DNA of 52,830 nt from Acidobacteriota bacterium (GTDB lineage: Bacteria; Acidobacteriota; Thermoanaerobaculia; Gp7-AA8), in contig JAOBAU010000113.1 of the NCBI GenBank assembly GCA_025463165.1, positions 1 to 52,830 of the forward strand. The letters run 5' to 3'. Both the position numbers and the translations under genes were made by a program. The notes under the pieces were generated by a model. That model searched no databases. It worked only from the letters and a program-made list of their open reading frames with translations, and was not told the origin of the DNA. Below, one piece after another: positions 6,519 to 44,233 of the stretch (position 1 is the stretch's first letter; each line of letters opens with the position of its first letter).

Positions 6519-6905
6519 ATGACAATCGCCGCGCCGAAGGTTCTCGTCGTCGAAGACAACGACATGAACATGCAGCTCGTCGAGTATCTGCTCGAAGAGG
6601 GCGGATACGAGATCGTGAAAGCCAGCAGCGGCGAGGAAGCGCTGTCGATCACGCGCGACTCCGAATCGCCGGCGCCCGACATCATCCTGATGGACATTCA
6701 TCTGCCCGGGATGGACGGTCTGAGCGTCGTGCGCGAGATCAAATCGGATGAGCGGATGCGCGGCGTTCCGATCCTCGCGCTGACCGCGCACGCCATGCGC
6801 GGCGACAAAGATCGCTTCCTCGAAGCAGGATGCGACGGCTACATCTCCAAGCCGATCGACGTGAAGACGTTCCTCTCGTCGATCGAACAGTACCTTCGAA
6901 AATAA
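6519..6905 (+). CDS. Receiver-only response regulator (DivK/CheY-like)
   Basis: A 128-residue single receiver domain with no output domain. Acidic pocket residues are E12 and D13 (VVEDND), the phospho-acceptor is D59 (ILMDIHLPGMDG), the switch threonine is in LTAHAM and the conserved lysine is in SKPID. The MDIHLPGMDG and LTAHAMRGD motifs are of the type common in DivK and in receivers of hybrid kinases. It would relay phosphate or act by protein contact. A TACACT -10-like hexamer lies at 6500-6505. ATG at 6519 is preferred; a TTG at 6507 in the same frame is an alternative. No histidine kinase is adjacent. Confidence 0.9.
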   Translation: MTIAAPKVLVVEDNDMNMQLVEYLLEEGGYEIVKASSGEEALSITRDSESPAPDIILMDIHLPGMDGLSVVREIKSDERMRGVPILALTAHAMRGDKDRFLEAGCDGYISKPIDVKTFLSSIEQYLRK

Positions 6906-6923
6906 ACCAGCAGGAGTCCCTCA

Positions 6924-8800: not shown

Positions 8801-8812
8801 TCAGGCGAACAA

Positions 8813-8901
8813 GGTGCTGAGTGCAAAGTGCTGAGTGCTGAGTCAAAGCACTCGGTTCTTTCGTTCTCCGACTCAGCACTCTGCACTCAGCACTCTGCAC
8901 C
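8813..8901. repeat. Heptad inverted repeat B (GTGCTGA type)
   Basis: Arms 8813-8844 and 8870-8901, each 32 nt of four 7-bp units with a few mismatches (one unit reads GTGCAAA), around a 25-nt unique loop. It starts 12 nt after the STAS gene stop and precedes nuoA in the same direction. Confidence 0.9.
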
Positions 8902-14019: not shown

Positions 14020-14101
14020 CGGTGCTGAGTGCTGAGTCCGTCGAAAACTGTCACGCAGTGTTTGCTTCGACGCAGCACTCAGCACTCGGCACTCGGCACC
14101 G
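14020..14101. repeat. Heptad inverted repeat C (asymmetric, GTGCTGA type)
   Basis: The left arm 14020-14038 has just over two units. The right arm 14072-14101 has about four, some reading GTGCCGA. The loop itself contains complementary GTCGAA and TTCGAC segments that extend the stem. It begins 5 nt after the stop of the V4R-like gene and ends just upstream of the cytochrome promoter region (TAGTCT at about 14109). Confidence 0.82.
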
Positions 14102-19888: not shown

Positions 19889-19960
19889 GGCATGAGGCAT
19901 GAGGGACGAGGTATGAGTGGGAGGCTTCTCACTCATGCCTCATTCCCCATGCCTCATGCC
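19889..19960. repeat. Heptad inverted repeat G (GGCATGA type)
   Basis: Arms 19889-19919 and 19930-19960, 31 nt each with 27 matches, built from 7-bp units of GGCATGA and variants (GGGACGA, GGTATGA) around a 10-nt loop. It starts 3 nt after the stop of the first exporter gene and ends 12 nt before the ATG of its partner, so it lies inside an obligate gene pair. Confidence 0.85.
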
Positions 19961-19972
19961 TGACGGAACGTC

Positions 19973-21820
19973 ATGGCTGAAATCGAAAAACACGAAGACG
20001 AAGGCGCGAAGTCGTTCGATCCGCATCTTGCGCGGCGGCTGCTGCACTACCTTCGTCCGTATCGCGCGCGGGCGGGGTTCTCGGTGCTGCTCGTCATTCT
20101 TTCGTCGGCGCTGGAGATCGTCGGGCCGGCCATCATCGCCATCGCCATCGATCTCTTCGTGAAGCCGGTGCCGGGGAGCAGCACGATCGGCGTCAGCGGA
20201 CGGATCGGCGTGTGGCTCGCGGCGCATGGCTGGAGCCTCGACGTCGTCACCGGCATCAACGTCGCCACCTCGGTTTATCTCACCGCGCTCGTGCTCGGTT
20301 TCGCGGTGCTCTATTCGCAGATGGTCCTGATGAACGTGATGGGCCAGTACATCATGTACGACCTCCGCAAGGAGATCTTCGGCCATCTGCAGAAGCTCGA
20401 CATCCGCTTCTTCGATCGCAATCCGGTCGGACGGCTGATGACCCGCGTGACGACCGACGTCGACGCACTGAACGAGATGTTCACCGCCGGCTTCGTCGCC
20501 ATCTTCGGCGACATCGTCGTGCTCGCCGGCATCGTCGGCGTGCTGTTCTGGATGAACTGGCGGATGGCGCTCGTCCTCTTCTCCATCACGCCGTTCATCG
20601 TGCTGGCGTCGATGTGGTTCCGCCGCGGTGCGCGCATCACCTACAGACAGGTGCGCGCGCGCATCGCCGCGATCAACGCGTTTCTGCAGGAGCACATCTC
20701 CGGCATGTCGACCGTGCAGCTCTTCAATCGCGAAGAGGCGGAGGCGGAGAAGTTCGAGGTGCTGAATGCGAAGCACCGCGACGCGAACATCGATTCGATC
20801 TTCTACTACGCCGTCTTCTATCCGGTCATCGAGCTCGTGCAGACGATCGGCATCGCGCTGATCGTCTGGTACGGCGGCGGTCAGGTCGTGCAGAAGACGC
20901 TGTCGATCGGCGCGCTGATCGCCTTCTTTCAATACGCGCAGCGTTTCTACGAGCCGATCTCGGATCTGTCGGAGAAGTACAACATCCTTCAGGCGGCGAT
21001 GGCGGCGAGCGAACGGATCTTCCGGCTGCTCGATACGCCGGTGGCCATTGAAGACAGCGGCGAGCTTGCAATCACCGAGCTCGAGTCGATCGAGTTCCGC
21101 AACGTCTGGTTCGCGTATAACGAGGAAGAGTGGGTGCTGAAAGACGTCTCGTTCCAGGTGCGGCGCGGCGAGCGGGTCGCGCTCGTCGGTCACACTGGCG
21201 CCGGGAAGACGACGGTCACTTCGCTGCTGCTGCGTTTCTACGAGATTCAGCGCGGCGAGATTCTCATCAATGGAGTCGACATCCGGCGCTACTCGCTTGT
21301 CTCGTTGCGGCGGCTCTTCGCCATCGTGCAGCAGGACTTCTTCCTCTTCACCGGCAACGTCTCGCAGAACATCGCGCTTGGCGATCCGTCGATCGGCGAA
21401 GAGCGCGTGCGCGAAGCGGCGGTGCGCGTGCAGGCCGACCGCTTCATCAGCAGATTGCCGGAAGGTTATGCCGCCGAGGTGAGGGAGAGAGGGGCGGGGT
21501 TCTCGGTCGGGGAGAAACAGCTGCTGTCGTTCGCGCGCGCGCTGGCGTTCAATCCGCCCGTGCTGATCCTCGATGAGGCGACCTCATCGATCGATACGGA
21601 AACCGAGCGGCTGATTCAGGACGCCATCCGGACGCTGATGGAAGGGCGGACGTCGATCGTCATTGCGCACCGGCTTTCAACGATCCGTTCGGCCGACACG
21701 ATTCTCGTGTTCCACCATGGCGAGATTCGCGAGCGCGGCACGCACGAGGAGCTGATGGAGACGAACGGTCTCTACCGTAGGCTGTACGAGATTCAGTATC
21801 GCGAAGCAGCGCTCGTGTGA
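19973..21820 (+). CDS. ABC exporter half-transporter, degenerate signature partner
   Basis: A 615-residue ABCB-like exporter half, partner of the preceding gene. The membrane domain is about residues 25-345 and the nucleotide-binding domain 370-610. Walker A is GHTGAGKT (406-413), Walker B LILDE with catalytic glutamate 535, and the H-loop H566. The signature is FSVGE (510-514) instead of LSGGQ. In a heterodimer its signature would face the Walker motifs of the first subunit, making one site degenerate in two elements and leaving the other fully canonical. This mirrors TM288/BmrD-type subunits and supports an asymmetric heterodimeric exporter. Confidence 0.93.
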   Translation: MAEIEKHEDEGAKSFDPHLARRLLHYLRPYRARAGFSVLLVILSSALEIVGPAIIAIAIDLFVKPVPGSSTIGVSGRIGVWLAAHGWSLDVVTGINVATSVYLTALVLGFAVLYSQMVLMNVMGQYIMYDLRKEIFGHLQKLDIRFFDRNPVGRLMTRVTTDVDALNEMFTAGFVAIFGDIVVLAGIVGVLFWMNWRMALVLFSITPFIVLASMWFRRGARITYRQVRARIAAINAFLQEHISGMSTVQLFNREEAEAEKFEVLNAKHRDANIDSIFYYAVFYPVIELVQTIGIALIVWYGGGQVVQKTLSIGALIAFFQYAQRFYEPISDLSEKYNILQAAMAASERIFRLLDTPVAIEDSGELAITELESIEFRNVWFAYNEEEWVLKDVSFQVRRGERVALVGHTGAGKTTVTSLLLRFYEIQRGEILINGVDIRRYSLVSLRRLFAIVQQDFFLFTGNVSQNIALGDPSIGEERVREAAVRVQADRFISRLPEGYAAEVRERGAGFSVGEKQLLSFARALAFNPPVLILDEATSSIDTETERLIQDAIRTLMEGRTSIVIAHRLSTIRSADTILVFHHGEIRERGTHEELMETNGLYRRLYEIQYREAALV

Positions 21821-37282: not shown

Positions 37283-37385
37283 GTGCTGAGTGCAGAGTGC
37301 TGAGTGCTGAGTCGCTCCGCTGCACGAAAGCTCATCGGGCATCACGAGGCCTTTTTCTCAGCACTCAGCACTCTGCACTCAGCAC
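37283..37385. repeat. Heptad inverted repeat D (perfect arms)
   Basis: Arms 37283-37311 and 37357-37385 are 29 nt and perfectly complementary, including one GTGCAGA variant unit at the matching place in both arms. The loop of 45 nt is unique. It lies between the ZIP and S9 peptidase genes; the right arm ends 9 nt before the TATGCT element of the S9 gene and so covers its -35 region. Confidence 0.93.
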
Positions 37386-39525: not shown

Positions 39526-39604
39526 GTGCTGAGTGCTGAGTGCAGAGTGCTGAGTCACGCTTCGCGTCCTCGGCCTTTTGACTCAGCACTCAGCACTCTG
39601 CACT
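39526..39604. repeat. Heptad inverted repeat E between convergent genes
   Basis: Left arm 39526-39557 with four units, right arm 39579-39604 with three and a half, 24 of 26 paired positions, loop about 21 nt. It starts 9 nt after the S9 stop and ends 3 nt from the stop of the M1-permease gene on the other strand. It is the only element of the family at a convergent junction. Confidence 0.9.
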
Positions 39605-44129: not shown

Positions 44130-44233
44130 AGTCCTGAGTCCTGAGTCCTTAGTCCTGAGTGCTCGACCCACAGCGCGGGCTGTTCGTCGACGCGGAGCGT
44201 TACTCAGGACTCAGGACTCAGGACTCAGGACTT
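44130..44233. repeat. Heptad inverted repeat F (GTCCTGA type)
   Basis: Arms 44130-44160 and 44202-44233 are built from GTCCTGA units, 30 of 31 positions paired, loop 41 nt. It ends 3 nt from the stop codon of the minus-strand diheme cytochrome and precedes the ABC operon in the same direction. Confidence 0.92.

Follow-up and report, generated by a model that had tools for sequence, protein, structure and literature searches.

The window, i.e., the whole stretch of 52,830 nucleotides analyzed here, belongs to a genome of 5.1 Mb in 471 contigs, a Gp7-like MAG of the Thermoanaerobaculia (soil Acidobacteriota), which is labelled G000 below. Seven inverted arrays of 7-bp units were found in the window, forming seven hairpins, five of the TGC, one of the TCC and one of the GCA dialect. 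This agrees with the first-pass annotation, made from the letters alone, which had reported five elements with GTGCTGA, one with GTCCTGA (element F) and one with GGCATGA (element G). When folded as single strands, the window hairpins reached −45 to −78 kcal/mol, with z-scores of −4.8 to −10.9 against dinucleotide shuffles (0 of 200 shuffles as stable for each). The elements, one recurrent tip motif and the two genes that flank element G are located as follows.

1040 to 1124, no strand assigned: element A, arms of 33 bp in the GTGCTGA dialect, with GTGCAGA variants confined to the right arm
8810 to 8900, no strand assigned: element B, GTGCTGA dialect
14022 to 14099, no strand assigned: element C, GTGCTGA dialect, shorter arms, small hairpin inside the loop
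18146 to 19885, plus strand: ABC transporter subunit, recognizable by the signature LSGGQKQR; the gene precedes element G and ends in a stop codon 4 nt before its arm
19889 to 19960, no strand assigned: element G (inverted array to 19961), two 31-bp arms, GGCATGA dialect with GGA and GTA variants, 10-bp loop GGAGGCTTCT
19973 to 21820, plus strand: second ABC transporter subunit, downstream of element G, start 12 nt past its arm
37283 to 37385, no strand assigned: element D (inverted array from 37282), GTGCTGA dialect, perfect 29-bp arms, mirrored GTGCAGA unit
39526 to 39604, no strand assigned: element E, GTGCTGA dialect, tip ACGCTTCGCGT (complement ACGCGAAGCGT)
44130 to 44232, no strand assigned: element F (inverted array from 44129), arms of 31 bp in the GTCCTGA dialect, carrying one of the ten genome copies of tip GTGCTCGACCCAC
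44159 to 44171, plus strand: tip motif GTGCTCGACCCAC in element F, also present at nine other loci, whose flanks are unrelated and whose arms are TGC in two cases

Element G folded at −59.6 kcal/mol (z −10.9). Its left arm reads GGCATGA GGCATGA GGGACGA GGTATGA and its right arm contains GGGGAATGA, with 4 mismatches in 31 positions; the element is itself mixed in dialect, variants resembling TGAGGGA and TGAGGTA standing beside TGAGGCA. Orthologues of the ABC transporter subunit encoded upstream of element G, with 73–79% identity, were found in nine relatives, all of them Acidobacteriota MAGs and several labelled gp7 or Thermoanaerobaculia. When these nine relatives were compared, the gap that holds element G contained heptad hairpins built from GTCCTGA (TCC-TGAG), TGGTTRC, GAGTGAM, or TAGTGGA, as well as three other inverted repeats, and was near-empty in two cases (12 and 27 nt).

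To extend the description to the genome, inverted repeats with periodic arms were searched for in 889 kb of G000 (17% of the genome), a sample picked in part for containing matches, of which 325 kb form a less biased subset. The 889-kb sample, chosen in part for hits, yielded 60 TGAG-type hairpins, and 53 of its 56 periodic inverted-repeat arms of at least 20 bp had a period of 7, so that the constant heptad period first noted in the window also holds outside it. The 325-kb subset contained 27 strong 7-bp arrays, 25 of them with an inverted partner, together with two arrays of period 14 (itself twice 7), one of period 5, and none of any remaining period from 4 to 15. With tandem 7-bp units far in excess of chance, the arrays qualify as heptanucleotide SSRs. 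Polarity was equally regular. In every one of the 60 hairpins of the sample, the 5′ arm carried TGAG and the 3′ arm CTCA, and a genome-wide pattern scan gave 152 matches in G000 against 0 in the reversed polarity, and 506 against 1 in G008, a genome of the same family. The TGAG hairpin pattern was present in 52 of the 297 genomes of a phylum-wide scan. Within the units of G000, position 4 was G without exception, and G at position 2 and A at position 3 were each found in 97%.

The commonest word was identical in the left and right arms of 46 of 52 elements in the G000 sample, and none of 1000 permutations of arms between elements reached the observed arm-pair identity. Other periods and mixed-dialect arms, which would have spoken against the pattern had they been equally common, were thus clearly in the minority in G000. 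The proposal that both arms of an element share one dialect therefore holds for most elements. The proposed comparison of arm identity within and between elements gave a divided answer: identity within elements was higher over the whole set, as judged by the permutations, but in the TGC dialect alone, with all shifts allowed, it was 0.957 within and 0.955 between elements. Since TGC arms are equally alike within and between elements, the sameness of arms is in part a matter of shared vocabulary and not of exact copying.

The exact mirroring of variant units had been described from element D, where 29 of 29 bases are paired, the GTGCAGA unit included, but it is not general, element A having two GTGCAGA units in its right arm and none in its left. 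A first test of strict mirroring (0 of 2000 shuffles) was based on a register chosen by the detector; when the register was re-optimised in the null, 92 paired units of the genome sample were identical against 86.3 ± 2.2 expected, and 18 of 2000 shuffles reached 92. Strict mirroring was thus rejected in favor of a weak effect: exact mirroring is found in a minority of elements, and the order of variant units is weakly mirrored, slightly above chance. Among the tandem gene pairs of G000, the GTGCAGA unit was commoner in the arm facing the stop of the upstream gene than in the opposite arm (14 against 4 elements and 23 against 10 units, small numbers drawn from 58 placed elements).

The tips of the hairpins were also compared. 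For 24 of 53 loops, a neighbor was found above the 99th percentile of shuffled loops. Tip GACGCGRAGCGACTCA has 20 copies in the genome, all 20 of them at the tips of heptad hairpins, and its arms are of the GAC, TGC or GCA/GTA type, i.e., of at least three dialects. Among the 10 genome copies of tip GTGCTCGACCCAC, TCC arms occur in eight, most of which include a TTAG or TAAG variant unit on the left side, and TGC arms in two; the copies are 84% identical from arm to tip, as compared with 27% for their upstream flanks. Because tips are shared among loci with unrelated flanks, whole elements must have been copied to new loci, and because a single tip occurs with different dialects on both arms, the arms can be replaced as a pair. 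The earlier claim that arms change together was borne out in this way, and shared tips with differing arms are the best evidence for paired arm replacement. The sequence GCGAAGC, an unusually stable DNA mini-hairpin, was observed in many tips, such as those at 39532–39604 (element E) and L123:8863, and GCGNAGC or its complement was present in 25 of 59 loops, as compared with 7% of random stretches.

The 58 elements that could be placed in G000 are intergenic and mostly lie directly past stop codons; 38 are located between codirectional, 13 between divergent, and 7 between convergent genes. In the 38 codirectional gaps, the median distance was 6 nt from the stop to the element and 14.5 nt from the element to the next start, genes having been called by a simple hexamer-based caller whose stops are reliable and whose starts are less so; the gap remaining without the element had a median of 27 nt. 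The orientation of the gene pairs did not differ from background, convergent gaps (7 of 58) not being enriched, and the orientation of the tip relative to the gene was random (10 same, 12 opposite). Arm mismatches on the transcribed strand showed no excess of wobble pairs (G·T 3 against A·C 12), no consistent T run followed the arms of the window elements, and an Rfam search of the window matched no family. A role as terminators was rejected on the basis of pair orientation, tip orientation, and T runs, and selection on RNA structure on the basis of the wobble test. Nor do the mismatch counts, the random tip orientation, and the background gene pairs support the suggestion that the constant period reflects selection on structure or spacing. 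Owing to the orientation, position, and mismatch results, tolerated insertions fit the data and terminators or selected RNA hairpins are not favored.

All seven window elements can be written, as had been noted, as TGAG plus three variable bases (TGAGTGC in five, TGAGTCC in one, and TGAGGCA in element G), but the frame is not universal. Hairpins of the same architecture in G008 and the sister genome G016 are built from CAGAYCG, TAGCGGG, GGCTCTT, AATTGAA, or GAATGTC heptads, some others from 8- or 9-mers, with 43 hairpins of period 7, 7 of period 8, and 3 of period 9. The TGAG frame is thus a property of one vocabulary and not of the heptad-hairpin phenomenon. One strand of the word was found on the 5′ arm in 46 cases against 2 across nine word classes in these two genomes, and G exceeded C in 45 of 53 five-prime arms. 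A stop-codon cluster (TGA every 7 bp gives stops in three frames) was discarded as a general reason for the words, since CAGAYCG and GGCTCTT contain no stops. Several orthologous gaps of G008 and G016 held differently worded hairpins, and others were occupied in only one of the two species. These single cases are striking, yet co-occupancy over orthologous gaps was not significant (Fisher p = 0.23 for any inverted repeat and 0.60 for heptads; p = 0.27 in a further test), and we therefore do not claim conservation of sites between the sister species. At L225 of G016, the orthologue of L071:1927-2044, TGAGTCC arms surround a heptad hairpin of GGGGTCG units, a nested arrangement that resembles the entry of one element into another.

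Being multicopy intergenic palindromes near stop codons, the elements resemble REPs, but no constant tag of the GTAG/CGTC type was seen in the elements inspected, and the ends of all 60 hairpins are TGAG-type heptad arms. As regards the terminal inverted repeats that copies of a MITE share, the arms are inverted repeats with a common vocabulary, but the word varies among copies with the same tip. No clear target-site duplication was seen in pairs of empty and filled sites, which share only ~70–85% identity, and no transposase gene was linked to the elements. G000 has a single Y1_Tnp hit, and no inverted repeat was detected in its 3.3-kb locus (L180). Across genomes, Y1 numbers did not track TGAG numbers (TGAG 266 and Y1 1 in G000, 0 and 15 in G003, 285 and 2 in G001). 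TGAG arrays are absent from G003 and G015 and number in the hundreds in G000 and G008. Mobilization by a RAYT was thus rejected in G000, its sole Y1 gene not being linked to any element. Y1 genes were present in most relatives, and several adjoin non-heptad palindromes of their own; those of RAYT type at L162, L163, L165, L167, and L169 lie next to other inverted repeats, such as CCCCCGGCTTCAGCCGGGGG. A plasmid search with element A gave no match, although such a query may be masked by the low-complexity filter of BLAST. In viral contigs, the TGC array was found in 22 stretches; since few of these were scored as hairpins in our scan and most of the hairpins fall in one 40-kb contig that is perhaps not viral, a link to phages was set aside.

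Elements composed of a tip and its arms recur at unrelated intergenic loci, their dialects are paired, one tip carries several dialects, and period and polarity are fixed. Heptad-armed hairpins have the appearance of a DNA element that spreads and whose two arms are rewritten jointly. We consider it somewhat probable that the elements are dispersed non-coding hairpins of the REP or MITE kind, with arms homogenised by fold-back copying. The unit plan would be a short tip, or core, framed by two arms of ~30 bp with about four copies of one 7-bp word, the 5′ arm bearing TGAG whichever strand is read. Such elements may spread by copying via a single-stranded intermediate; slippage, or a template switch to another element, might alter one arm, and fold-back synthesis, in which the 3′ arm of the hairpin copies the 5′ arm, would rewrite the other arm, so that dialects shift in pairs. 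The 7-bp unit would be the slippage step, and placement past stop codons may reflect that the scarce non-coding DNA lies there and that insertion would be least harmful. Random tip orientation and background gene pairs are as for insertions, and a single polarity for every word is what the copying of a polar element would give. Against fold-back copying, we counted that arm identity within a dialect is no higher inside an element than between elements, and where sister species have wholly different words at one site, this could be due to independent insertions instead of rewriting. We think that the copying enzyme in G000 is not a RAYT. Tentatively, it is also possible that a mobile tip acquires new arms where it lies, built from the word current in the genome, both arms together, by fold-back copying in 7-nt steps and with one polarity, perhaps by a dedicated enzyme.

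It is unlikely that the elements are RNA hairpins selected in mRNA as terminators, 3′-end stabilisers, or intercistronic processing sites, with words drifting by compensatory change. Their very stable stems, their position mostly directly behind stop codons, and the recurrence of hairpins in the same gap of relatives would be consistent with such a role, but convergent gaps are unenriched (7/58) and 13/58 elements lie between divergent genes, tips occur in both orientations without any Rfam match in the window, G·T is not favored over A·C (3 against 12), sharing between the sister species is within the expectation for independent occupancy (Fisher p = 0.23 and 0.60), and drift would not produce the same words and the same tips at dozens of loci. 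Shared tips with unrelated flanks are also left unexplained, or would need to be convergent, if the hairpins arose by purely local mutation, slippage making 7-bp arrays and palindrome-correcting template switches copying an array to the other strand without mobility. This process, which appears quite improbable to us, accounts for the period and for arm concordance, and in most genomes heptads reportedly outnumber every other class of long SSR (Mrazek 2007, as cited in the passages considered of PMC4679880), but it does not explain the same few words genome-wide or the fixed polarity (152 to 0). A protein reading TGAG every 7 bp, such as a global regulator or a nucleoid protein, would fit the near invariance of TGAG in G000 (G4 in all units, G2 and A3 in 97%) and the similar look of the Geobacter class-3 sites in the legends of PMC2700814. 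We give it little credence, as relatives have the same architecture with unrelated words, and the elements show no promoter preference, 38 of 58 lying between codirectional genes at a median of 6 nt past the stop. Movement as REP elements by a RAYT (Y1 transposase) is very improbable: the elements are palindromic, intergenic, of single polarity, and near stop codons, and most relatives have Y1 genes, several beside their own non-heptad palindromes, but the sole Y1_Tnp of G000 has no inverted repeat in its 3.3-kb locus, Y1 counts do not follow TGAG counts (G000, G003, G001), and there is no GTAG tag, the arms of ~30 bp contrasting with stems of 5–13 bp in the GTAG REPs, according to the parts considered of PMC3733652.

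Several known systems share part of this organization. In the P6b stem of the Nostoc tRNA-Leu(UAA) group I intron, as described in the sections of PMC4476775 considered here, both arms derive from one 7-nt motif (Class I TDNGATT, Class II NNTGAGT, the latter matching the TGAGT-type words), and whole stem regions have been swapped, repeatedly and independently, for the other motif while the fold was kept, as with the elements here. That stem, however, occupies one intron site in cyanobacteria, whereas the Acidobacteriota elements number in the dozens to hundreds, are intergenic, share tips, and use many words; a P6b or group I intron location does not apply, the window giving no Rfam match and the elements being intergenic. 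The predicted regulator sites of Geobacter metallireducens, with five tandem MTYCTGA heptads, are likewise dispersed, multicopy, and made of a CTGA-containing word, and class 3 is printed over two strand-switching lines, but in the legends of PMC2700814, on which this comparison is based, they are read as regulator sites with 16 copies and without an analysis of dialects or tips. REPs of the GTAG/CGTC super-families are, in the parts considered of PMC3733652, intergenic palindromes near stops with many copies and one end polarity, viewed as miniature mobile DNA; unlike them, the elements described here have 7-bp-periodic arms of ~30 bp, no GTAG/CGTC tag, and no RAYT nearby in G000. TAACTGA direct repeats, which occur in Beggiatoaceae, cyanobacteria, and Bacteroidetes, are also intergenic and abundant in one genome, forming short arrays of a heptad that contains TGA, but almost all are direct (169 direct sets and one indirect set), mostly upstream of starts, and not inverted pairs past stops (parts considered of PMC4679880). 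The same passages cite Mrazek 2007 for an explanation by polymerase contacts of why heptads are the commonest long SSR class.

Bacterial heptad repeats have been noted repeatedly, without an agreed explanation for the number seven. The STRR heptads of cyanobacteria, reportedly described by Mazel in 1990, would share the same likenesses to and differences from the elements as the TAACTGA repeats. We found no description of hairpins in intergenic DNA that share tips and can exchange their heptad arms in the open-licence literature as far as it was covered, and earlier subscription papers may have been missed. Here, the word changes while period, polarity, and pairing hold, and the tips serve as tags by which arm replacement can be traced for each copy, so that ideas on how heptad repeats originate can be tested. 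If the heptad stems of Nostoc and Geobacter are the same thing, the re-arming process would be widespread in bacteria. As a caution, structure alone would be insufficient to call such hairpins terminators or regulator sites.

Further repeats were observed in addition to the elements. A non-heptad repeat family, ATCCCTCTCCCTCCGGGAGAGGGTG...GGGTGAGGGG, is found at L066:15855, L128:7922, L129:845, L133:2207, L134:4299, and L148:15597. The palindrome GTCATYCCGAGCGNAGCGAGG is dispersed in G000 (L059:2787 and L150:12586) and also occurs at the element-G site of a relative (L095, gap 6783-6906); within it, the motif GAGCGNAGCG resembles the tip GACGCGAAGCG.
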